Shown here piece by piece: positions 234 to 45,071 of a stretch of 50,282 bases of DNA. Every line of letters begins with the position of its first letter. Position 1 is the first letter of the stretch. The stretch spans positions 1-50,282 of the forward strand of contig VFKX01000005.1 of the NCBI GenBank assembly GCA_009885285.1, written 5' to 3'. The stretch is from Candidatus Falkowiibacteriota bacterium. Lineage in GTDB: Bacteria; Patescibacteriota; Patescibacteriia; Patescibacteriales; UBA12465. A program made the position numbers and the translations under genes. Below the pieces are notes generated by a model that saw only the letters and a program-made list of their open reading frames with translations, searched no databases and was not told where the DNA came from.

Positions 234-3200
234 CTAGTTAATCGGGGCGCATTGACCGTTATTACAAAATATCTCTTGTGACTTCGCACTTTCGTTCTTA
301 TAGCTGTCAAGCGCACTAACGGCAAAATAATCATTCTTAAATTCAAATTGCGAAGAATTAAAACTTAAAGTAGCAGCAGCTGATAAAGAATCGAAAGATT
401 CACCATAAGCGCCTGATTTAATACCATGATATAAACGATACGACGTGGCCCCATCAATAACATTCCATTTGAATATGGCTGTGGAACTAGAAATAATCAA
501 GCCAAAACTACCTGGAGTGGCTGGAGGTGTCTTATCAGTCGGAGTAATTGTCTTTTCTACAGACAAAGGACTCTCAACCTTATTCGTTGAAATAACACTG
601 AGCTTAAAGACATAGGGGACATTATTGGTCAGGCCGGTTAAGGTGGTGCTACATGAATATGTATTACCTGATAAAGTACAAGCGCCTAAGCCCACCGCCT
701 TCTCGAGCATCGCTCCCTTGCCTGACTTTAAGTAATAAACTTTATAAGAACCGACTTGACTAGCTGAGGATTGCCAGTTTACTCTCACTGCCCCACCGGT
801 TTGCAAATCAGTAACTGAACTAATGTCGCCACCGGAAATACTGGCTTCGCGGAAGAAATATGATTCTTTAAGCACACTCCAAATACATAAGCCATCGGCC
901 GATCCGTCATTATTTTGATCAGGACCGCAAGCCGAACCGATGTTCGAACAGGTGTTCTTATCAGTACTGCAAACTAAGTTAGATCCTTGCCCGCGAATAA
1001 CAGCCCGGTTAATGATAGCTGGTAAATCATCTAGCGTTCCGGATGTTCCTGCATCGCGGCAATAATAGAACTTATAATTATAATCTGAGCAACTACCACC
1101 AATTGAACCGGTACAATTGTCGGCCCAAGGAGACCAAAGACCGTTAGCAGCTACTGGCGGCCAGGTATTTTTACAAGAGAAAACATAAATATTAGCGGCA
1201 TGGTTATAGTTATTTCCTCCGGAATAGACATTGCAACAATTATTTGAGCAAATTTCATCAGTACAAGAACAAGTACCACTGGCGCAAATACCGCCACTAA
1301 AATTACTCATATTAACTGTGGCCTTGACTTGGGCTTCCGCGTCGGTTGCTCCTGATGTCGCAGACACAAAAACTTTATTTCTAGCTAAACCGGTGACGGG
1401 TAAGATTGAGGCGACAGCTGGATTAGGATTCTGGAAAGTCCAGGTCCAGAAATAGCCAGTAGTTGGTTGAATTGGCTGTCCGCCCAAGCTATAGGCCTGA
1501 GCAGTGAAGACCTTATCTTTATCAACTACAGTATCAAAAGTCTTATCACTCACATCTGCATCTTTTTCATCCAGGCCGTTTTCTGTAGTGTTAAACAAAT
1601 ATGAGGACGGAGAAACTTTGACATCATTAATGGCGCAAATTCCGGCCATCGGGCCCTGATCAGACAAAGTTGAGAATTTAATAATCTGGGAATTCGGATA
1701 ATTCTTGCCATTCAAGCTAATATTCTCTCCGGGAATATATGAGCTGGTATCAACATTTAAATAACCCAATCCGTTAAATCCTATTCCAGAATAACTCAGC
1801 ACGCCCGACTGGCTGTTTAAAGCGGCATCGCCCAAAACAACAAAATAATAGTTAGAAGAGGCATTTAAAAGTTTTCGAGGCGCAAAGGAAGCAGAAGAAG
1901 TTTCTCCGGTCGTCTCTCCGCTGGCAGTTCCCGGGACAGCACAATATAGATTATTGGAATTTGGTGTATCGGCTAAGGCCTGGTCAGAGAATTTCATAGC
2001 CAAGCTTTTCCATTCGTACTTAATGGCAGTCAATATTTTGGTAATTAAACCTTTACTCTGCAGAGCTAATAAGTGATCAATAGAATCGGCCTCAGCCACA
2101 AAAGTGCCGGACGGGCAAACTCCGTTACCATAGACTCTCTCTTCAAGCAACATGATATTGTTTTGTAAGCTAGAGATATCCATCTTCTGATTAAAGTTTA
2201 CCTGGATAACTGAATTACGACAGACCTCATCTTCCATGTGCGCCGGTGAAGTGCTGACGATGGCTGGCCGAGCTTCGCAGCAAGTGTCTTGTCCACAGCC
2301 GACAGTCTCCGGTGAGCCACATTCATTATCGCTTGAGCAGCCGCAACATAGTCCGCGGCTAGCGCCTGAACAATTACCCTTATCAGCTAAACATTGGAGT
2401 TTCGGGTTCAGGGCTGTGCAAGCATCCGTAGTTGCGCCAGGCTGACAGCAGCAAGTACCGCAGTCAGTATCGAGCGTGCCTAATTGTCCGCTCGGAGAGA
2501 AACAGCCAAATCCGGCAAAAGTACATTTGTCGGTCGCGCAAGTTGAAGAAGCACTACCAGCGCAAGTTAAACCAGGTCCAGTTGGAGGATTTGCACAATT
2601 ATCAACACAGGTAGTTAGACTATCAAAAGTACCGAGTCTCACAGGTGTTGAACTAGCACAAATATTTTCATTGGTCAGAGGAATGGCTTCGCAATTATAG
2701 TAAGCGCAATAACCATTATCAGCTCCGCCGGTAATCGCGGTTCCTAAAGTACAAGAGTCATCGCCTGGAGCTGGTGTCTTATTAGAATTAAAACAGCAAC
2801 GAGAATTAGCACTGCAAGCGGTAAAATCTAAACCGGGACATGGATCAGAATTAACACAATCTGCAGTACAGGCCCCAATGCTCGGATAATTTCCAATTTT
2901 TACCGGTGTGCTCGATGCACATTGTGTCGGGTTAGTCGCCGAACAATCATAATAGGCGCAATATCCGAAAGAAGGATTGCCGGGAATAGAAGAAATAAGA
3001 GTACCATCGCCGCCGCGACAAATATCATCGGCTGAGGTAGCAGTCTTTTTGGAATCTAAACAACAAGCATTGCTATGATCAGCACACTCAGATCCGGTGA
3101 GGTTAGAGCAATCAGTACAAACACCGCTCGGAAAAGCAGTATTGCTAGTATCGCAGAATTGACCGCCATGGTCAGCGCAATTACAAGCAGCATCATGCTC

Positions 3201-6020
3201 AGCTGCTGTCGTTCCCACAGAAGCACAACCCCCGCAACTACCCAACGTAGCACCGGTAGTCTTTCCAGTATCTGACCCACACGTTCCCTGGCAGGTCAAA
3301 GGCGCACAGCAGTCACGAGCATCTTGGCCTATAGTACAACAACAATCGCATTTAGGCTGATCAGGGACAATGCATTTATCAGGCTCTCCGACATTTGGAT
3401 TATCAGAGCAAGTTGCTCCGGCAGCACAAATCTTGGCGGAAACACAGTGTCCGACTTCAGAAATATTCTGGCAAGTGAAATCAGTCGAACAAACAGAACA
3501 ATCGGAAGTTAAGCTCACACAGCGATTACCAGTCGACCGGGTCCAGCCATTTGGGCAAGAGGTCGGTATAGTGATTTCCCAATGTTTGTCTTTATTGCAA
3601 GTTTGCGGAGTAGTGAAATTTTTCCCACCCAAGGTATAAGATAATGAAGTCGGCAGGTCGCAAGTCGCGCCGGCGCCATTCTTAACGCATTTATCTAAAG
3701 AGGCGTCATAGGTGCAATTATTCAAACCCAGTTCACCGCAACCACTGACAGTGCTGCAGGAATAATCGCAAGCGCCGACAATCTTCGATCCGCCTCCGGC
3801 ATAAGGAGAACAAGTTCCCGGAACATTCGGACAAGTCGCGCCGGTCTGGCAGGATCCGAAATAAGAGGCCAGGCCGGAACAGCTATAAGCATATGGATTT
3901 GGCGTGGTTGTTGAAAAGCCCGTATTAAAACTCCATTCAAAAACTGAAGTCGGGATATTGATAAAACAATTATCCAGGGTGTCAACACAGCGCCCCTTGC
4001 CGTAAGTATTCTGCGGGCAGCAGACCTTTGTGCCACAATCAGAATTGGAACTACATTCTCCGATAGAAAAGTTTACTTCATTGCCCCATTTGCTATTCTT
4101 AATCACCCGAGCCGGACCAGTAATTGAGCCTACTGGGACTTTGGCCTGAATGGTGTCTGCCCGGCCATCTTTAGCAATCGTGCCGGTGGCGGATTTCTGA
4201 TTATTAAAGTGCACAAGGCCGACATTATTCAATTGACCAAAATATTCACCCCAGAAAGTTACCGGCGTAGCGATAGGGCCAAATTCAGGTTCAATCTTAC
4301 AAATACTGCTGCTCAAATCTAAATTTGCATCAGAATGAAAAGTATTCGGGTTCAATTTCTGAGTATCAATCGTAGTAGTTCCCCGAACAATCTTGATTGT
4401 TTGATATCCATCAACCAATCCGGCCGGCACTTTAACGACAATCTGATTATCCTTCCAGACTGAATTGAGGCACATGTCTGGAAAATCATAAGCTGCTTCA
4501 GTGTTACCAAAAAATACTTGAGAGGAACCGCGAGCACCGCCAAAACCATTACCTCGAATCGTCACGTATTGTCCGGCGTTCCCAGCGGTCGGCAGGAATG
4601 AAGAAATAAAAGGACCCTCTCCCGGCTCAGGCTCTTTTGTAAAACTTAAAAAATTACTTTTCTCTGCATGTCCATTGATATTATTCTGCACAAAACTGCC
4701 GGACTGTCCAGATCTGATATTTGGCGTAGTAGATGTGCCAGTTAAGCCGACCGGGTTACTGAAACTGGAGCTGAGCGCCTGAACATTACTCTGATAATTA
4801 CCAAAATAGGCGCTACCGGAAAATAAATTTATACCCTGATACCCAACTTGTGAACTCAATGCTCCGGTATTCGGACTCAAATAGCATAAACCCGGGCGGG
4901 AAATATTATTAACCTGAAAATCTGCAATATCCGGCCCATAAGTATTACCGGTCGTGTCCTCAAGATTGTCAGCATTCACAACTTTAATAGATCCGACACT
5001 AGCGCCGCTCGGCACCGCAATGACAATTTCAGTATCTCTCCAAGTATTGGCGCAGGCAGAATTAAGTTCGACTGGATTGCGGCCATCGCGGGGATTACCA
5101 TTGCCTTCAAATACTACCTTACTGGTCGTAGCCGAATACGAACCGAAATTCTTACCAATGATTGTTATAAAATTACCGACAGCGCCGTTCGGTGTAGCAA
5201 TATTGCATGTAGTGGCACAATCACTGTCGACTTTACAGGTCTGATTCGGATTATTGTCACAGAAACCGCCGTTCGGGCTGATAGCAGTAATGACTGGCGG
5301 ACCAAAACAAGTACAGGACGTCGGGTTACAGGTTAAATATTCTGAACAATGGTTATTATCGGCATCGCAAGTGGCGTTAGTTAAATCGCTATCGCAAGGA
5401 TCACCCAGATTCCCTCTCGGCTTACAGCCACAATCGCCAGCATCGCAATAATCGCTCGGAGCGCAGATTTGAGCCGCTGCCTGACAGCCAGGATTTATAT
5501 TGGAGTCGCAACTAGTCGGAGCATTGCCGCCTCCGCCGCCGCTACAATTAGAACCGACACAAGATCCATATGATCCCCCGCTACAAACCATGGCACCGCC
5601 GCAACCACAAGACATGCTCTCGCCATCGAGACAGCCGCTAGACGAACCGTTAGTCGCACCGCTTAAACGGGAAATAATAAAAGTCGCAATTGCCCATGAC
5701 GATAGCACAATTACTAAACCAATTACCGCATTCTTGAGTAAACTTTTGGCTTTAGTCAGTTTTTCTTCATCGCCTCCGGAACTCATCCATAAAAAACCTG
5801 CATAAATAATCAAGCCGACGGCAATAACTCCTAGAAAACCTAAAGCGATATTAATAATCCGGCCGACAATTGTGCGCGGATCAGTAGTGGCAAGAGCCCC
5901 ATTCAAACCGGTGCCGACTTCATTAGTGCCAAATCCTTGAGCCAGCACAAAATTTGAAACCAGAAGTCCGGCTGAAATTAGGAAAAAGATTAATAGATTT
6001 TTTTTAGAGATTCTATTCAC
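234..6020 (-). CDS. Giant (1928 aa) cysteine-rich surface protein: T4SS-pilin (TrbC/VirB2)-like N-terminal double-TM module + IPT/TIG-like domains + Cys-rich modules + Big_5/Ig-like + FnIII-like region
   Basis: N-term DPRTIVGRIINIALGFLGVIAVGLIIYAGFLWMSSGGDEEKL..AVIGLVIVLSSWAIATFIIS; repeated 'PxITxISPNGG..ITIIGKNFG' TIG-like motifs; dozens of Cys; 'RPAIVSTSPAHMEDEVCRNSVIQVNFNQKMD' Big_5-like. Confidence 0.85.
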   Translation of the reverse strand: MNRISKKNLLIFFLISAGLLVSNFVLAQGFGTNEVGTGLNGALATTDPRTIVGRIINIALGFLGVIAVGLIIYAGFLWMSSGGDEEKLTKAKSLLKNAVIGLVIVLSSWAIATFIISRLSGATNGSSSGCLDGESMSCGCGGAMVCSGGSYGSCVGSNCSGGGGGNAPTSCDSNINPGCQAAAQICAPSDYCDAGDCGCKPRGNLGDPCDSDLTNATCDADNNHCSEYLTCNPTSCTCFGPPVITAISPNGGFCDNNPNQTCKVDSDCATTCNIATPNGAVGNFITIIGKNFGSYSATTSKVVFEGNGNPRDGRNPVELNSACANTWRDTEIVIAVPSGASVGSIKVVNADNLEDTTGNTYGPDIADFQVNNISRPGLCYLSPNTGALSSQVGYQGINLFSGSAYFGNYQSNVQALSSSFSNPVGLTGTSTTPNIRSGQSGSFVQNNINGHAEKSNFLSFTKEPEPGEGPFISSFLPTAGNAGQYVTIRGNGFGGARGSSQVFFGNTEAAYDFPDMCLNSVWKDNQIVVKVPAGLVDGYQTIKIVRGTTTIDTQKLNPNTFHSDANLDLSSSICKIEPEFGPIATPVTFWGEYFGQLNNVGLVHFNNQKSATGTIAKDGRADTIQAKVPVGSITGPARVIKNSKWGNEVNFSIGECSSNSDCGTKVCCPQNTYGKGRCVDTLDNCFINIPTSVFEWSFNTGFSTTTPNPYAYSCSGLASYFGSCQTGATCPNVPGTCSPYAGGGSKIVGACDYSCSTVSGCGELGLNNCTYDASLDKCVKNGAGATCDLPTSLSYTLGGKNFTTPQTCNKDKHWEITIPTSCPNGWTRSTGNRCVSLTSDCSVCSTDFTCQNISEVGHCVSAKICAAGATCSDNPNVGEPDKCIVPDQPKCDCCCTIGQDARDCCAPLTCQGTCGSDTGKTTGATLGSCGGCASVGTTAAEHDAACNCADHGGQFCDTSNTAFPSGVCTDCSNLTGSECADHSNACCLDSKKTATSADDICRGGDGTLISSIPGNPSFGYCAYYDCSATNPTQCASSTPVKIGNYPSIGACTADCVNSDPCPGLDFTACSANSRCCFNSNKTPAPGDDSCTLGTAITGGADNGYCAYYNCEAIPLTNENICASSTPVRLGTFDSLTTCVDNCANPPTGPGLTCAGSASSTCATDKCTFAGFGCFSPSGQLGTLDTDCGTCCCQPGATTDACTALNPKLQCLADKGNCSGASRGLCCGCSSDNECGSPETVGCGQDTCCEARPAIVSTSPAHMEDEVCRNSVIQVNFNQKMDISSLQNNIMLLEERVYGNGVCPSGTFVAEADSIDHLLALQSKGLITKILTAIKYEWKSLAMKFSDQALADTPNSNNLYCAVPGTASGETTGETSSASFAPRKLLNASSNYYFVVLGDAALNSQSGVLSYSGIGFNGLGYLNVDTSSYIPGENISLNGKNYPNSQIIKFSTLSDQGPMAGICAINDVKVSPSSYLFNTTENGLDEKDADVSDKTFDTVVDKDKVFTAQAYSLGGQPIQPTTGYFWTWTFQNPNPAVASILPVTGLARNKVFVSATSGATDAEAQVKATVNMSNFSGGICASGTCSCTDEICSNNCCNVYSGGNNYNHAANIYVFSCKNTWPPVAANGLWSPWADNCTGSIGGSCSDYNYKFYYCRDAGTSGTLDDLPAIINRAVIRGQGSNLVCSTDKNTCSNIGSACGPDQNNDGSADGLCIWSVLKESYFFREASISGGDISSVTDLQTGGAVRVNWQSSASQVGSYKVYYLKSGKGAMLEKAVGLGACTLSGNTYSCSTTLTGLTNNVPYVFKLSVISTNKVESPLSVEKTITPTDKTPPATPGSFGLIISSSTAIFKWNVIDGATSYRLYHGIKSGAYGESFDSLSAAATLSFNSSQFEFKNDYFAVSALDSYKNESAKSQEIFCNNGQCAPIN
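2590..3080 (-). repeat. Two tandem ~85-aa-spaced cysteine modules inside the giant protein
   Basis: CCLDSKKTATSADDIC...GYCAYYDCSATNPTQCASSTPVKIGNYPSIGACTADC versus CCFNSNKTPAPGDDSC...GYCAYYNCEAIPLTNENICASSTPVRLGTFDSLTTCVDNC. Confidence 0.85.
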
Positions 6021-6067
6021 AAATTTAATATACGCGAATTAATTCTGCCGCTGCGACAGATTGAAAG

Positions 6068-8767
6068 CTACTGGCAATTACCATCTGCCCCCAAGGCGCT
6101 ACTCGGAGAACCAAAACAACATGACGGCTGAGCCTCAGTGGCAATACAGCCCGGACCAATGCTCGGCTTATAGCAATTTTGGTAAATATCTTTGACTCCA
6201 GAACCGACTTGCGCCCGGAAAGTCAGAGATTCTGCAAAAGGCGAATGATTAATCTTGGTAATTGTCAGGTCAGGCTCCCCATCCAAAGGAGACACGTCTT
6301 TATTTTCACTGGTAATCCAATATCCTAAGGCGCTAGGCGAAGATGCTCGCAGATTTATCAGCTTATGTTCAAAAGTTGATGTCCCATTATTAACGATGAC
6401 GCTGCCGGTGTCCAGAGTGCTATTAAGCATTAAGCCGTTAAAGCTGATAGTGATAGGGTCGGCTAAATTTATACCGCTCTGTCCCTGAATCGGAGAAATT
6501 GACGTTATCTGCGGCGGTGTCAGCATGATCGTGTCATTAATATAGAAAGACCATTTGTATTTATCCTTCTTATTAACATTAACTGTTGTGCTGTAATTAT
6601 CATCATAAAAGTCCAGAGGCCCCTCCGCATAAGTATTTCTGTCGCCATCAAAAGAATTGGTGGCCGCATCCACAATACCGTCAAGACTGCTCAAATTCGC
6701 CAAAGGATAATTATGCCCCTGCGCATCCTGGCAAGTCTGGTATCCTAAAGAAGTCGGAGCGCAAATGTTATAAGGAGCGGAGGCGGCGCAATCTGAATTA
6801 GCTGTACAAGTTTTTAAATTTGCCGAAACCAACTCAATAGCTAAATGACTGGACGCCGGTAAGCAATAAATTTCCTCGCCGCATCCATTAACACCACATT
6901 TAACGTCCGAGATAAATTCTAAAGTCTTATAGCCATTACTGACTTTAAATTTTCCGCCCAAGAAACTACCGACACAGACATTATTCTGGCAGCTATATGA
7001 ACGACAATCAGAATTTCTAGTGCAGCCACCTCCAGCTAAAGTGCTCGAGGCATTAGCGTTTACCACCTTGATAAAATTCGCTACTTCGCTAGCGGTTCCG
7101 GAAACAGTGACTGGGTTAATGGCTTCATTAAAATTAATCTGGATAGCGGAATTCATCGGCCGGTCTTGCTTATCGTTTGATTGGCTTAATTCTTGTCTGT
7201 CCTGGCCGCCGGATAAAGGACGAACCAATAAGGCAGTATTATTGGAAGTGGTTACAGCTACGGTGTTTCCTGAAGCCCCGGCTACTTTTGCGCTTAAGTT
7301 TACAGTTGTGCCACTCAGTCCGACATTGATAGCCTCATGGCCACTCAACTTTGCCTGAATATTACTGGCCTGTGTGCCGGCATTACAAATTGCCGGTACG
7401 GCGATATTGTTATTCGCTCCAGTCCTGGCGAATGTGTAAACTGTATCATTAATAGTCAAAGTGTCAGCCAGTCTTTCCGGGGAAATCGAGATTGTCCAAA
7501 GACTGCCGGCCGGATGACTGGCAGCTGTCAAGGTTAAATAATTTGCGAATACCGCCTCGCCGCTCGCATTAAAATCAGCGGCACCGAGCAGGTTATTGGC
7601 TGCATCGAATAACTGAGCTTTGTCCGGAGCATCAGCCGGCACAGCTACTTTCAAGCTCGATAATGCGCCATGATAATTTAAAACGACGGTAGCACCTGCC
7701 GGGTTAATGCTATTAACACTGGCGGCCGAATAAGTGTTCGGACAAGAACTGATAAGGATGGCGCCAGTAGCAGCGGCCGCTGGAGTTACAACCTTAAAAA
7801 GATCTTTCTGATTGTCGGGCAATGGAAAAATTCCTGCAGGTGCAACTACCGGCGGCGTCAAATCAAAATTTGTATTGACGGTAAACGACCACTGAGCGAA
7901 GTCGGCCGAGCAGCTCCGGAACATTGAAGTGCCATCCAATTTTTCAAAATCATTAGTCAGCTTAATAGTGTATCCAGTATTAGCGTTGGTTGACCCTAAT
8001 GGTGTCAGCGGCATCAGGACTAAAGTCTTGTTTACTCCCGTCACACTAACCAGAACATTAGTTATATTAGCGTTAGTACTAGGACAAGCCGTACTCGTAC
8101 AAGCGTCACCCAGCTCAGTCTTATATATTCTAATAGCCAACGGATTTATTTTATTACAATCGGCTGCGTCGCAAGCGCAAGCCGAACCGGCAGTATTAAC
8201 ACAGACCGAATCTAATTTCATCTCTTCCTTAAAAGTTACCATGATGGAGGTATTGCGCGGTACATCAGTCTGAGCGTCTTCCGGATAAGTGCCTGCTATT
8301 GTACAGGCACCAATTGCTCCGGCGCCGGCATTCAAAGAATTTCCGCCAGGACCATTTAAATCAGTTCCTACATTTGCGCCAGTAGCGGCCATTAAGCGCG
8401 ACAGAACGAAAGTTGTAATACCCCAGGCAGACAAAATTATAGCCAAGCCTATAAGAGCGTTAGTTAAAATCTTTTTGGCACTAGAAATTTTTTCTTCTTC
8501 GCCGCCAGAAGTGGTCCACAGGAAACCGGCATACATAATCAGGCCGACGGCAATCACTCCTAAGAAACCTAAGGCCCACTGAATAATGCGACCAATAATA
8601 ATTCGGGGGTCAGTAGAACTCAAGGCGCCGCCCAGACCATTGTTAACCTGATTAATTCCGAAGTCTTGCGCAGACGCAAAACTGGCACCAAGAATGAAAT
8701 AACTTGCCGCCGCGATAACGATAATTAGGCTTAATGATAAGCCTCTATGTTTTATATATTTAGCCAT
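6068..8767 (-). CDS. 899-aa paralogous surface protein: T4SS-pilin-like N-terminal module + Big_5/SbsA-like Ig domains, Cys-rich end
   Basis: N-term FGINQVNNGLGGALSSTDPRIIIGRIIQWALGFLGVIAVGLIMYAGFLWTTSGGEEEKI nearly matches the 1928-aa protein; 'YPEDAQTDVPRNTSIMVTFKEEMK' and 'NSAIQINFNEAINPV' Big_5-like motifs. Confidence 0.85.
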   Translation of the reverse strand: MAKYIKHRGLSLSLIIVIAAASYFILGASFASAQDFGINQVNNGLGGALSSTDPRIIIGRIIQWALGFLGVIAVGLIMYAGFLWTTSGGEEEKISSAKKILTNALIGLAIILSAWGITTFVLSRLMAATGANVGTDLNGPGGNSLNAGAGAIGACTIAGTYPEDAQTDVPRNTSIMVTFKEEMKLDSVCVNTAGSACACDAADCNKINPLAIRIYKTELGDACTSTACPSTNANITNVLVSVTGVNKTLVLMPLTPLGSTNANTGYTIKLTNDFEKLDGTSMFRSCSADFAQWSFTVNTNFDLTPPVVAPAGIFPLPDNQKDLFKVVTPAAAATGAILISSCPNTYSAASVNSINPAGATVVLNYHGALSSLKVAVPADAPDKAQLFDAANNLLGAADFNASGEAVFANYLTLTAASHPAGSLWTISISPERLADTLTINDTVYTFARTGANNNIAVPAICNAGTQASNIQAKLSGHEAINVGLSGTTVNLSAKVAGASGNTVAVTTSNNTALLVRPLSGGQDRQELSQSNDKQDRPMNSAIQINFNEAINPVTVSGTASEVANFIKVVNANASSTLAGGGCTRNSDCRSYSCQNNVCVGSFLGGKFKVSNGYKTLEFISDVKCGVNGCGEEIYCLPASSHLAIELVSANLKTCTANSDCAASAPYNICAPTSLGYQTCQDAQGHNYPLANLSSLDGIVDAATNSFDGDRNTYAEGPLDFYDDNYSTTVNVNKKDKYKWSFYINDTIMLTPPQITSISPIQGQSGINLADPITISFNGLMLNSTLDTGSVIVNNGTSTFEHKLINLRASSPSALGYWITSENKDVSPLDGEPDLTITKINHSPFAESLTFRAQVGSGVKDIYQNCYKPSIGPGCIATEAQPSCCFGSPSSALGADGNCQ

Positions 8768-37614: not shown

Positions 37615-40600
37615 ATGAGTGATCTCGCCTCCATTGAGAATTTAATTAATCCGACCGACGACGAAGAGAGCGTTGCCGGTCTTTTTGCGAAAAAACAAGG
37701 AGAAATTAAAAATAAAGAAATAGAAAAGGAAACCAAAGAAGCTGCGCAGCAGTTAGGCTTTGACTATGTAAATTTATCCGGCTTCCCTATTAGCCCCGAG
37801 GCTCTCGCCCTAATCCAAGAGCAGAGAGCCAAGGAACTGGGCGCTATCTGTTTTTATTATGACGGCAAGAGCATTAGACTCGGCTGTGTTAGCCCGACTA
37901 CAGAGGTTAAGGCAGAAATGACTCGGCTCGGCGACCAATACTTTGCCAATACCAAACTTTATCTAATATCCACGACTAGTCTAGAAATCGGTTTAGAGGC
38001 CTATAAAAATCTACCGAAAGTTAAGAAATATGAAAGCGGTGTAGAGATTACCGAAGAAAACCTGGAAAAATTCAAGAGCGATATCAGCAGTTATAAGAGC
38101 TTGAATGAAAAAATCAATGAAGTAAATATCACTGATATCATTACTTTAATACTCGCCACCGCCATGAAAGTCAGGGGTAGCGATATCCATATTGAAGCCG
38201 AGGAAACTGGCGTCGTCATCAGAATCAGAATTGACGGTGTCTTACAAGAAGCAGCCGTGATAGACAGAACGAAGTGGAATAAAATCGTATCCCGTTTAAA
38301 AATTCTGGCCAGAGTCAAGATTAATATTGATAACCAACCGCAAGACGGACGCTACACCATTTATTTAACCAATAAAAAAATAGATGTCCGTGTTTCTTTC
38401 CTGCCGACAGCCTATGGCGAAAGCGTCGTCATGCGTCTTCTTGACTCATCATCAGTGGCTCTCGAATTTGAAAGTCTTGGTATCAGACCGGAGATCATGC
38501 CTTTACTGGCTCGGGAAATCTCTAAGCCTAATGGCTTAGTGGTCACCGTCGGTCCGACTGGTAGCGGCAAAACAACAACTTTATACGCCGTTTTAAATAA
38601 GCTTAACCGTCCCGGCACAAAGATTATTACCCTGGAAGACCCGATTGAATATCAGCTTAAAGGCATTAACCAAAGCCAAGTCGATGAAAAGCGCGGCTAC
38701 ACTTTCTCTGATGGTCTGCGCTCGATTTTGCGCCAAGACCCTAACGTCGTCATGGTTGGAGAAATTCGCGATTTAGAGACAGCAGAAATTGCCGTCCAAG
38801 CCTCGCTGACCGGACATCTCGTCCTTTCCACTATGCACACCAATGATTCCGCTGGTTCAATTCCTCGATTGATTGACCTTGGAGTTAAGCCGTATTTCCT
38901 GGCGCCATCAATCAATGTCATTATCGGCCAACGCTTAGTCCGAAAAGTCTGCCAGACTTGCCGCGTTGAGCATGTACTTAGCGTTGATGAGTCCGAACAA
39001 ATCAATAAAATCCTGGCCGTACTTTCTCCAAAAGCCGGCGTTAACATCCCTTCAACTTTGCCGACCATCTATGCTGCCGGACCAGGCTGTGATCAATGCA
39101 ATTTTATTGGTTATAAAGGTCGCTTAGGCATCTATGAGGTCTTAGCCATGAATGACAAGCTTAAGCAATTAACTATTGATCAGGCGCCTTCTTTTAAACT
39201 TTTGCAGCAAGCCATTGAAGACGGCATGATTACCATGTTGCAGGACGGTATCCTTAAAATAATGGACGGACTAACTTCTATAGAGGAAGTTTACCGCGTT
39301 ATCGGCAACTTCGACTATATCAATGAGCTTTACGATGTTGTTATCTCTCAAACAATCGGCCGCGGCGTAAAAATAACACCTGCTCAATTCCAAAAAGCTG
39401 GCGAATTAAGCCAAAGTATTGGCGACATTTCGCAAGCCGTCAAAGATATCCCTACCGGAGAAATCATTAATCTGGTCTTAGCACTGGGCGCTGTTAGCGA
39501 TGCCGGCGATATTCACATTGAGCCAACCGAAATTGACGTCAAAGTCCGCTTCAGAATTGATGGTGTCATGCACGATGTTTTAAGCTTACCAAAAACCAGT
39601 TATTTTCCGCTTCTTTCAGAAATAAAAATATTGGCCGGTGCGCCGACCAACGTTAAGCGGGCTACATTTGACGGCCGCTTCGCAATTTATCTGCCCGACA
39701 ATAAAGTTGACTGCCGTTTATCCATTATTGCCGGCGGTTACGGTGAAACAATCGTTATCCGCTTACTATCAACTTCAGCTGCAAATTTAGACATGAATAA
39801 GTTGGGCATTACTGCTGTTGCCTTCGACTCCCTGCAAGAGGCCATGAAGAAAACTAGAGGTATTATCATCACGACCGGTCCAACCGGCAGCGGTAAGACT
39901 ACCACCCTATACAGTATTTTGAATAAACTTAATAAAGCGGACGTTAAGATAATTACGGTTGAAGATCCAATTGAATATCAGTTGGCTGGTGTCATGCAAA
40001 CCCAAATTGACGAAGAACGCGGCTATACTTTTGCCTCTGCCATGCGCTCCTTGCTGCGCCAAAACCCGAACATCATGATGATCGGTGAAATCCGCGACAG
40101 TGAAACAGCCAAGATAGCGATTGAAGCCTCCTTGACCGGTCACTTAGTGCTTTCTACTATTCACGCGAATTCCGCCGCCAGTGCCATCTCTCGTTTCGTC
40201 GGCCTCGGTGTTGACCGGCAGACCCTAGCCAATTCTATTGAATTCGCCATCGGTCAACGTTTAGTGCGCCGCCTCTGTCCGTACTGTAAAAAGGTAGCCG
40301 ATGTTTCACCGGAAGAAATTAAACACGTCCAGGATATATTAGCGAATATTAAAAACCCCAAGATTACTATTCCGACTAACCTGTTCTTTTATACTGGCGT
40401 CGGCTGCGTTAAATGCGGCCAGATTGGCTATAAAGGACGTCTAGGCTTATATGAAACCTTAACCATGAGCCCGAATATCCAAAAACTGATTCAAACGGAA
40501 AATGTTATTGATGTGGATATTGAGAATGCGGCCGTCAGCGAAGGCATGGTGACCATGATTCAAGACGGCGTCTTAAAAGCTTTAAATGGCGACACTAGCC

Positions 40601-40626
40601 TTGAAGAAGTTTTCCGCGTAATTTAA
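37615..40626 (+). CDS. Tandem-duplicated PilB/GspE type IV pilus/T2SS assembly ATPase (1003 aa, two complete ATPase modules)
   Basis: GPTGSGKTTTLYAVLNKLN and GPTGSGKTTTLYSILNKLN; EDPIEYQL twice; VGEIRD/IGEIRD; GHLVLSTMHTND and GHLVLSTIHANS; CQTC..CDQC and CPYC..CVKC Zn motifs; MshEN-like N-term. Confidence 0.95.
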   Translation: MSDLASIENLINPTDDEESVAGLFAKKQGEIKNKEIEKETKEAAQQLGFDYVNLSGFPISPEALALIQEQRAKELGAICFYYDGKSIRLGCVSPTTEVKAEMTRLGDQYFANTKLYLISTTSLEIGLEAYKNLPKVKKYESGVEITEENLEKFKSDISSYKSLNEKINEVNITDIITLILATAMKVRGSDIHIEAEETGVVIRIRIDGVLQEAAVIDRTKWNKIVSRLKILARVKINIDNQPQDGRYTIYLTNKKIDVRVSFLPTAYGESVVMRLLDSSSVALEFESLGIRPEIMPLLAREISKPNGLVVTVGPTGSGKTTTLYAVLNKLNRPGTKIITLEDPIEYQLKGINQSQVDEKRGYTFSDGLRSILRQDPNVVMVGEIRDLETAEIAVQASLTGHLVLSTMHTNDSAGSIPRLIDLGVKPYFLAPSINVIIGQRLVRKVCQTCRVEHVLSVDESEQINKILAVLSPKAGVNIPSTLPTIYAAGPGCDQCNFIGYKGRLGIYEVLAMNDKLKQLTIDQAPSFKLLQQAIEDGMITMLQDGILKIMDGLTSIEEVYRVIGNFDYINELYDVVISQTIGRGVKITPAQFQKAGELSQSIGDISQAVKDIPTGEIINLVLALGAVSDAGDIHIEPTEIDVKVRFRIDGVMHDVLSLPKTSYFPLLSEIKILAGAPTNVKRATFDGRFAIYLPDNKVDCRLSIIAGGYGETIVIRLLSTSAANLDMNKLGITAVAFDSLQEAMKKTRGIIITTGPTGSGKTTTLYSILNKLNKADVKIITVEDPIEYQLAGVMQTQIDEERGYTFASAMRSLLRQNPNIMMIGEIRDSETAKIAIEASLTGHLVLSTIHANSAASAISRFVGLGVDRQTLANSIEFAIGQRLVRRLCPYCKKVADVSPEEIKHVQDILANIKNPKITIPTNLFFYTGVGCVKCGQIGYKGRLGLYETLTMSPNIQKLIQTENVIDVDIENAAVSEGMVTMIQDGVLKALNGDTSLEEVFRVI

Positions 40627-40642
40627 TTTTGTAATTATTCTT

Positions 40643-41218
40643 ATGATCAGCCCTAAATTTTTAGAAGAACTCAGAAAAGACTACCAAGCCAATGAATCAG
40701 AGCGTCGCCAGATAATCAGCGCCTCCAACAATATCTTGTTTGAGGCTAAGAAAACAATATTTGCCCTGCAAAGACAAGATTTTAAAACTGCCGTGACTAA
40801 AATTGCAGCCAACGAAGAAAATCTAAAAAATCTCGCCAAACGCTTCGGCCAAGAACGATTGAACAAGGAAGGGGCTTATAAAGCAGCGGCCGAAGAATAT
40901 CTTGAAGGCAAGACTTTTTTCTTGGTCATTAAGGGTAAAAAAATAGAAGCAACTCCAGGTTTGCAACTTGACTATGAGGCTTATCTCGGCGGAATTTGTG
41001 ACTTAATTGGCGAATTAGTCAGATACGCAACTAACCAAGCCGCTAACGGCAAATTCACCGCTGTGGCAAAAATCAAACAAGGTGCAGAGGACATTATGGC
41101 GCAACTGATTGACTTTGATATGACTGGCTACCTTCGAACCAAATATGACCAAGCCCGTGGCCACTTGCGTAAACTTGAGCAGATGGCCTATGAAATCAAA
41201 TTAAGGGGTAAAAAATAA
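40643..41218 (+). CDS. Translin/TRAX-family protein (putative C3PO-like RNase)
   Basis: GLQLDYEAYLGGICDLIGELVRYATNQAANGKF..YLRTKYDQARGHLRKLEQMAYEIKLRG aligns by eye to translin/TRAX C-terminal half; EEYLEG upstream. Confidence 0.85.
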   Translation: MISPKFLEELRKDYQANESERRQIISASNNILFEAKKTIFALQRQDFKTAVTKIAANEENLKNLAKRFGQERLNKEGAYKAAAEEYLEGKTFFLVIKGKKIEATPGLQLDYEAYLGGICDLIGELVRYATNQAANGKFTAVAKIKQGAEDIMAQLIDFDMTGYLRTKYDQARGHLRKLEQMAYEIKLRGKK

Positions 41219-41229
41219 TCCTTCCCCTT

Positions 41230-41730
41230 ATGATGATTGCTATAATCTCCGACATTCACGACAATGTCGCTAATTTAGAGAAGTGCTTGAGTTGGTGTCT
41301 TAAAAACGATATAGAGAAGCTAGTCGCCTGTGGCGATATGGCAAATATTGATACAATTGCCTATTTATCTGCTAATTTTCCGGGAGAAATATATTTAATT
41401 GACGGTAACGCCGAGCTTTATGGTGAACGTGAACTTGAACCGTTCACTAATATCATTTATAGCGGTGAGATAGGCTTAAGAGAAATCGGCGGTCTAAGAA
41501 TCGGCTTCTGCCACCAGCCAGAAAAGATTAAGAAAGTTTTTAAACTGGCACAAACGGCTCCGGACTTCATCTTTTACGGACATACTCATAAACCTTGGCT
41601 CGAGCGCGACGGAGATACGACCATAGCTAATCCTGGTAATCTCGCCGGCATTATCCATCAAGCCACCTTCGCCGTCCTTGATTGCCAATATAAAAAATTA
41701 GATTTAAAAATACTTGCTGATTTAAAATAA
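41230..41730 (+). CDS. Calcineurin-like phosphoesterase, YfcE/MJ0936-type
   Basis: IAIISDIHDNVANLEKCL, VACGDMAN, DGNAE, YGHTHKPWLERDG. Confidence 0.9.
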   Translation: MMIAIISDIHDNVANLEKCLSWCLKNDIEKLVACGDMANIDTIAYLSANFPGEIYLIDGNAELYGERELEPFTNIIYSGEIGLREIGGLRIGFCHQPEKIKKVFKLAQTAPDFIFYGHTHKPWLERDGDTTIANPGNLAGIIHQATFAVLDCQYKKLDLKILADLK

Positions 41731-42581: not shown

Positions 42582-45071
42582 CTAGATAATCGCTTTCAGA
42601 TATTTACCGGTATGGCTTTTGGGGTTCTGAGAAATTTCAATCGGCGTACCAGCGCCAACCAAGTAACCACCAGCATCTCCGCCTTCTGGCCCCATATCAA
42701 TAATCCAATCTACGGATTTAATAACATCCAGATTATGTTCAATAATCAAAACAGTATTACCCTGATCAACCAACATGTTTAAGACTTTTAGTAATCTATC
42801 AATATCAGCAAAATGCAGGCCAGTGGTTGGTTCATCAAGAATGTATAAAGTCTTGCCAGTCGCGCGTCGAGATAATTCAGTCGCCAGCTTGATGCGCTGC
42901 GCTTCACCGCCTGAAAATGTCGTTGCACTTTGACCGAGTTTGATATAGCCCAAACCAACTTCGTCCAAAGTCTTCAGTTTTTGACTGATCGCCGAGTGCC
43001 CCTTAAAGAATTCTTTAGCTTCTTCAATGGTCATCTCCAGGACCTCATAAATATTTTTACCTTTATACAAAACTTCTAAGACTTTGGACTGAAATTTCTT
43101 GCCGCCACAGACATCGCAAGTCAGATAAACATCGGATAAGAATTGCATCTCAACTTTAATAACACCATCGCCAGCACAATTCTCACATCTTCCGCCAGGG
43201 ACATTAAAAGAAAAATGTCCGGCACTTAATCCCTTAACGCGCGCTTCCGGCAAGTCAGCAAATAAATCTCGGATATAGGTAAACAAACCGGTATAAGTAG
43301 CGGGGTTAGACCGCGGCGTCCGACCAATCGGCGATTGATCAATGTCAATCACTTTATCAATATGCTCTAGCCCGGTTAAATCTTTATGAACACCCGGTTC
43401 AGTCTTAGCACGATAGAATTTTTTGGTCAGGGCATTGGCTAAAATATCATTCATCAAAGTTGACTTGCCGCTACCAGAAACACCGGTAATAGCCACTAGT
43501 TTTCCCAGAGGAATATCGACGTCAACATTCTTTAAGTTATGTTCAGTGGCACCCGATATCTTAATAGACTTGCCGTTACCCGGTCTAAATATTTTTGGCG
43601 TTTTAATTTCTTTTTTTCCTGACAGATAGGCACCGGTAAGAGATGGGGCACAATCCTTAATATCTTCTGGTAGACCAGAAAACAGGACATTGCCACCAAA
43701 ATCACCTGCTCCGGGACCGATATCAATCAACCAATCGGCCGCCACCATTGTCGAAGCGTCATGTTCAACTACAATCACGGTGTTGCCGTTATCTCGCAAT
43801 TCTTTCAGGGTCAATATTAACTTATCATTATCACGTTGATGTAGGCCAATAGAGGGCTCATCTAAAACATATAAGACACCGCAGAGAGCTGAGCCGACTT
43901 GCGAAGCTAAGCGGATACGCTGGGCTTCTCCGCCGCTCAAAGTGGCGGCTGCCCGACTCAGAGTGAGATAATCGAGGCCGACGTTAGCGAGAAACTCCAG
44001 GTTCTTCACCATCTCCTTAATGATTGGTTCGGCAATTTTGGCGCCGCCGTTTAAACCGGCCGAATTTTTTATCCACGAAGATAGAAGTTCTACCGCGGAC
44101 TTAATACTTTTATCAGTCACTTCAATGATGGACAAACCGTCAATCTTTACCAGTAAGGATTCTGGTCGCAAGCGAGCTCCCTGGCATGACGGGCACAAAG
44201 CAGTCCGCATTACCTTTTCAATCTCCTGCTTAACAAATCCGGACTTGGTCTCCTGATACTTTTCTTCAAGCGCAGCTAAAATACCTTTAAACTCGCTATC
44301 GCCTCTGAGTAATAGATTTTTATGGACAGTATTTATATCCTTAATAGCGGGACGCAAGCTGAAGTCATGCCGTTCTGCCAACTTTTCCAATTCAAATAAT
44401 AAGCCACTCACGCTTAGATTAGCATGAGATAAAGGCTTAATAGCTCCTTCCGGGATACTAAGGTTATTATTAAACACTAATTCTGGGTCAATTTCTGACT
44501 TTGTTCCCAATCCGCCGCAAACCAAGCAGGCTCCATGGCCAGAGTTGAAAGAAAAATCGCGTGGCTCTAGCTCAACGCGGCGATAATCGCAATTAGGACA
44601 AGAAAAATATCTTTCTAGGCGCACTGATTTAATTTCGCGGCCGCGAACCGTCTTAGCCGTCTTTTTTTCTTCAGACGCTCTCTTCAGCTTAATTTGGCAA
44701 TGCGGGCAAAACGGCTGTCCGGCTCGAGCATACAACAAACGCAGATAATCATAGATTTCTGTGATAGTGCCGACGGTCGATCGCGGATTATGGCCCACTG
44801 TCCGCTGATCAATTGAAATAGCCGGCGACAAGCCTTCAACCGAATCAACATCCGGCTTATCCATCAAACCGACAAATTGGCGGGCATAGGAAGACAGGGA
44901 CTCGACATAACGGCGCTGCCCCTCGGCATAAATAGTATCAAACGCTAAAGATGATTTTCCTGATCCTGATAGGCCGGTAATGACCACTAGCTTATCTCGA
45001 GGAATGTCTAAATCAATATTCTTGAGATTATTAGTCCTTGCCCCGCGGATCTTAATGAAATTCTCGGCCAT
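42582..45071 (-). CDS. uvrA: UvrA-family ABC ATPase, short (829 aa) UvrA lacking the UvrB-binding region
   Basis: [34 protein letters not shown]; two [18 protein letters not shown] signatures; three Zn/Cys motifs; truncated interval between CPHC and CPNC. Confidence 0.95.

Follow-up and report, generated by a model that had tools for sequence, protein, structure and literature searches.

A gene in the window (the whole stretch of DNA that was analysed, 50,282 nucleotides long, from a small-genome bacterium of Candidatus Falkowbacteria) codes for a 191-residue protein of the translin/TRAX superfamily which, judged from its sequence, is TRAX-like, i.e., of the catalytic type, rather than translin-like. 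It is probably a catalytically competent protein resembling the TRAX of archaeal C3PO, acting as a metal-dependent single-stranded RNA endonuclease in the form of a homo-oligomer. C3PO has been studied mostly as an RNA-interference factor. The present protein represents a predicted and apparently intact nuclease of the C3PO type that a large group of streamlined bacteria has retained, for the most part through vertical inheritance, and the one genome checked for Argonaute has none. Since a C3PO-type protein is conserved in bacteria and Argonaute is absent from the checked genome, an ancestral role outside RNA interference becomes directly testable, and the bacterial protein offers a small, single-gene C3PO system for biochemistry. 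Bacterial translins are already known, having been reported in 2012, and the present protein belongs to this known kind. Within the literature searched, in which no paper combining “translin” and “Candidate Phyla Radiation” was found, two things look new: that the protein is conserved class-wide in the Patescibacteria, and that it has E84 as a fifth invariant acid.

Family assignment, predicted fold and active-site residues

The open reading frame begins with an ATG at position 40643 and ends with a stop codon finishing at 41218. The gene and its motifs are located as follows.

40643-41218, + strand: TRAX-like translin-family protein, predicted single-stranded RNA endonuclease, 191 amino acids (Pfam PF01997; AlphaFold2 model; Foldseek matches to human TRAX and archaeal C3PO)
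40892-40906, + strand: EEYLE motif, residues 84-88, with E85 and E88 equivalent to human TRAX E126 and E129 (HMM alignment to 3pja_J; invariant in 71 homologues)
41000-41014, + strand: DLIGE motif, residues 120-124, with D120 and E124 equivalent to human TRAX D193 and E197 (HMM alignment to 3pja_J; invariant)
41132-41152, + strand: LRTKYDQ, residues 164-170, with invariant R165 and K167 (invariant columns of alignment A1; alignment to NEQ131 and AfTRAX)

The protein matches the Translin family of Pfam (PF01997) with an E-value of 1.7e-20 and 74.4 bits, the curated cut-off being 25.9 bits, and residues 20-189 are aligned with positions 2-205 of the 205-position profile, such that a full domain over the cut-off places it in the translin/TRAX superfamily. 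A preliminary description of the window had proposed a bacterial translin/TRAX homologue on account of a C-terminal half that aligns with these proteins. The homology is borne out and the C-terminal likeness is real, but the domain spans nearly the entire protein and not that half alone. Its credible sequence relatives in the PDB are NEQ131 (the C3PO of Nanoarchaeum), translins, AfTRAX and human TRAX. The genome to which the window belongs (a 1.43 Mb, 95.3%-complete draft assembly in 118 contigs) contains a single translin-family gene. The same reading frame (40643-41218, + strand) also matches the models PRK14562.1-2 to -6 of NCBIfam, which bear the name “haloacid dehalogenase superfamily protein”, with a best E-value of 3.9e-19 and below the cut-offs of the models themselves; this name looks like a misannotation, which archaeal TRAX proteins may carry too.

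The AlphaFold2 model, built from A1, is all-helical, with a mean pLDDT of 97 and a pTM of 0.90. A Foldseek comparison with the PDB places the human TRAX chains 3pja_L, 3pja_K and 3pja_J on top (TM 0.88), followed by NeC3PO, including its complexes with ssRNA and ssDNA, and AfC3PO (TM 0.79-0.85), with translins ranked lower than TRAX. All of the best 50 PDB structural matches listed are translin, TRAX or C3PO. The all-alpha translin fold, which the preliminary description had set as a test of its proposal, is thus the fold predicted by the model, and no conflicting fold was seen. SepCysE, an adapter for tRNA-Cys, was considered since papers on SepRS mention translin, and was rejected because no SepCysE entry appears among the best 50 structural matches; the translin superfamily includes TRAX and not SepCysE (PMC5424206).

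The nuclease activity of human TRAX requires E126, E129, D193 and E197 (PMC9753400). In the alignment of the bacterial profile (A1, 64 sequences) to PDB 3pja_J, with residues counted from the printed alignment, these four correspond to E85, E88, D120 and E124, respectively, and all four catalytic acids are therefore present in the protein. The EYLE and DLIGE motifs had previously been placed at the TRAX catalytic EYVE and DLTGE sites; the alignment to human TRAX is exact, although the first motif has the fuller form EEYLE, its added E84 being itself invariant. The four acids are unchanged across 71 distinct bacterial homologues, in a set whose mean column identity is 45%. They are included among the 10 invariant columns out of 191 (K36, E84, E85, E88, D120, G123, E124, R127, R165 and K167), and the chance of finding all four catalytic positions there is 4e-6 by a naive hypergeometric calculation that treats the columns as independent. 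Fly translin carries Q at the position of D120, and this, together with the presence and invariance of the four acids, underlies the TRAX-like assignment. By homology, the four acids would be expected to cluster in space. The LRxKxD motif is common to the bacterial protein and archaeal C3PO, as seen in the alignment with NEQ131 and AfTRAX, and the LRTKYDQ segment is possibly RNA-contacting or structural.

Eukaryotic TRAX acts in RNA interference as a hetero-octamer with translin. In human and Drosophila C3PO (PDB 3pja and 3axj), the four human catalytic residues of TRAX align with the bacterial ones, and in structure it is human TRAX that matches best. The two systems differ in that the eukaryotic complex combines TRAX and translin, whereas the present genome contains neither the second paralogue nor the Argonaute partner (no Piwi match) of a C3PO serving as RISC activator. 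The best PDB match in sequence is NEQ131 (NeC3PO) of Nanoarchaeum equitans (PDB 5jr9, 5jrc and 5jre; E-value 8e-13, or 4.6e-25 by profile; 27% identity in the structural alignment), likewise a member of the translin family, whose EYVE and DxxGE motifs are of the TRAX type. In NeC3PO, Trax alone can degrade RNA via oligomerisation (PMC9051087). NEQ131 differs in its archaeal origin, its longer N-terminus (the match starts at chain residue 39) and the Q that precedes EYVE. AfTRAX of Archaeoglobus fulgidus (AfC3PO; PDB 3zc0 and 3zc1) resembles the bacterial protein in length class, shares its fold (TM 0.79-0.85) and has ELVE and DAVGE motifs, yet its pairwise sequence similarity is weak (E-value 1.4e-5). 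NEQ131, AfTRAX and human TRAX all have Q at the position aligned with the invariant E84, the extra acid of the bacterial set.

Distribution, descent and genomic context

Close relatives of the gene were found at 17 loci in other assemblies, with 45-88% identity (Candidatus Falkowbacteria, other Patescibacteria and further bacterial assemblies, among them chromosome CP066698.1), and these, with the low dN/dS given below, put the reading frame far beyond chance. Of 380 genomes sampled evenly from the phylum, 26 have the gene; 22 of these belong to the window's class, probably ABY1 of the GTDB. Only about 4 of 347 phylum genomes outside the class carry it, as against 135 of the 286 within. The gene occurs in 56 of 60 close relatives; in the genus all 16 sampled genomes have it (own genome counted), as do 19 of 20 remaining family members. 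The earlier statement that translins are mainly known from eukaryotes and some archaea is outdated, both by these figures and by Gupta et al. 2012 (J. Mol. Evol., cited in PMC3834833), the subject of which, by its title and citation, is translin-superfamily proteins of eubacteria, and to that extent the same superfamily in bacteria as that described here. There is one gene per genome in the genomes searched; those with two matches contain a single gene found as two HMM pieces. The gene is missing from about half of the class and hence dispensable there.

The dN/dS ratio is about 0.02 between the two closest orthologue pairs, in which synonymous sites are unsaturated (these sites are saturated in the remaining pairs tried), and the gene is under purifying selection. 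In a maximum-likelihood tree of 65 sequences, the families f163, f5, f4, f8, f165 and f185 and the window's order each group together, with f4 inside f6. The exceptions are L051, which falls within the clade of the order, and the non-class sequences L003 and L020/L022, which are nested among class members; two archaeal sequences both have very long branches. Since the gene tree largely follows the families of the class, descent appears mainly vertical; a tree of this shape would be expected from such descent combined with some transfers and frequent loss. A mobile origin was rejected, as no copies were found in plasmid and phage records, no relative was found in viral contigs scanned with one degenerate pattern, and the AlphaFold2 model has no significant structural relative among viral structures.

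The immediate neighbours of the gene are the following.

37615-40626, + strand: fused tandem PilB/GspE-type pilus ATPase, upstream (context conserved in the window's order only)
41230-41730, + strand: YfcE-type metallophosphoesterase, downstream

In the window's order, the translin gene sits after pilB and a membrane protein, and a YfcE-type phosphoesterase is often next downstream; pilB and the phosphoesterase are neighbours solely in or near this order. Elsewhere in the class, a P-type ATPase, MltG-like or glycosyltransferase gene commonly lies upstream, and MurD-like or glycosyltransferase genes lie downstream, often with overlapping ends; all genes outside the window were identified by judging their sequences. 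Across 55 loci no conserved operon partner was found, and the varying neighbours are ordinary genes that give no hint of the substrate.

Proposed function and alternative explanations

As the predicted active site is complete, and is conserved in roughly half of the class, a working RNA-cutting enzyme is very probable. The preliminary description had suggested a C3PO-like nuclease, which is well supported as a candidate by family, predicted fold and catalytic residues, and which can now be refined to a TRAX-like, archaeal-C3PO-like protein. Since there is one translin-family gene per genome, the single TRAX-like protein would assemble as a homo-oligomer, forming the entire shell with an active site in every subunit (compare Archaeoglobus and Nanoarchaeum). 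E85, E88, D120 and E124 would coordinate a divalent metal and cleave single-stranded RNA within this shell, and the cutting would proceed without Argonaute, for which no Piwi-domain match was found in the 95.3%-complete genome. The role may be a general turnover of short single-stranded RNA alongside PNPase and RNase Y; as to the substrate, our guess is short RNA debris or tRNA leaders.

The genome also codes for RNase Y, PNPase and an NrnA-like DHH protein. In the class, PNPase is found in 269 of the 286 genomes and RNase Y in 261, while RNase R/II (RNB domain) occurs in just 3. The patchy distribution of the translin gene is not explained by these enzymes, and the replacement of any of them was rejected, because the first two are near-universal regardless of translin and the third is nearly absent. 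The replacement of a nanoRNase was likewise rejected, as the genome keeps the NrnA-like protein. With the DHH protein, PNPase and RNase Y all encoded, no RNA-decay gap that the translin protein obviously fills was found. Little is known of the enzymes of RNA decay in the Patescibacteria, to which the protein adds a probable nuclease. It is conceivable, though doubtful, that the Patescibacteria possess a C3PO branch of their own, in which the invariant E84 alters cleavage chemistry or substrate and which performs a core RNA-turnover step in a class nearly devoid of RNase R/II.

A narrower form of the same explanation would make the protein a dedicated accessory nuclease of tRNA processing, acting after RNase P to remove 5' leaders or fragments of tRNA. 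Translin-TRAX of Neurospora clears the 5' leaders released by RNase P, or tRNA fragments (PMC3834833), archaeal TRAX genes share a putative ancestral operon with the gene for SepRS, an enzyme that charges tRNA (PMC5424206), and the present genome contains an RNase P RNA. The absence of any tRNA-related conserved neighbour across the 55 loci speaks against such a dedicated role, to which we give a rather small chance; removal of RNase P-released leaders, in the manner of Neurospora, may be one specific and tentative option for a general RNA-cutting enzyme.

The main rival to catalysis is a non-catalytic, translin-like protein that binds ssRNA or ssDNA and shelters or regulates RNA, with the acids playing a structural part. 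Translin subunits bind nucleic acid while lacking the complete catalytic set of TRAX, and the C-terminal portion of the bacterial protein, with its LRxKYD motif and its Y-E-hydrophobic-R-G ending, resembles translin. Yet the invariance of the four catalytic acids at a mean column identity of 45%, the Q of fly translin in place of D and the structural ranking of TRAX above translin all argue for a nuclease and render a purely binding function unlikely.

Eukaryotic C3PO works with Argonaute in RNA interference, which might suggest an RNA-interference or anti-phage component in bacteria as well. This is highly improbable: no Piwi domain occurs in the 95%-complete genome, PADLOC gave no match for the translin-family protein or its two neighbours, no defence-like conserved neighbours were found in the 55 loci, and the gene, unlike defence genes, is mainly inherited vertically, and no copies of it were found in phages or plasmids. 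Archaeal or eukaryotic contamination of the metagenome bin, which the 118-contig draft state of the assembly might have allowed, is refuted by the same upstream pilB context in independent assemblies, including chromosome CP066698.1, and has bacterial neighbours on the same contig against it as well, so that its probability is negligible.

Additional genes in the window

The PilB/GspE-type ATPase (37615-40626, + strand) is a tandem duplication of 1003 aa with two T2SSE domains. The fused tandem form is found at all Falkowbacteria loci with the translin gene, as well as at L073 and L076, and a version of 567-578 aa at L074, L075, L077 and L079 of the same order.

The UvrA protein at 42582-45071 (- strand; 829 aa) has no match to the UvrB-interaction domain. 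Its orthologues measure 818-850 aa in Falkowbacteria (one 687 aa) and 952-970 aa in other genomes of the order. As the UvrB-interaction domain (PF17760) is found in a different ORF of the genome, on contig C26, the UvrA of the window looks UvrA2-like.

Two very large, adjoining ORFs of 1928 and 899 aa occupy positions 234-8767 (- strand). They combine a T4SS_pilin domain close to the N-terminus with Ig-like domains of the TIG or Big_5 type, and are probably cell-surface proteins.
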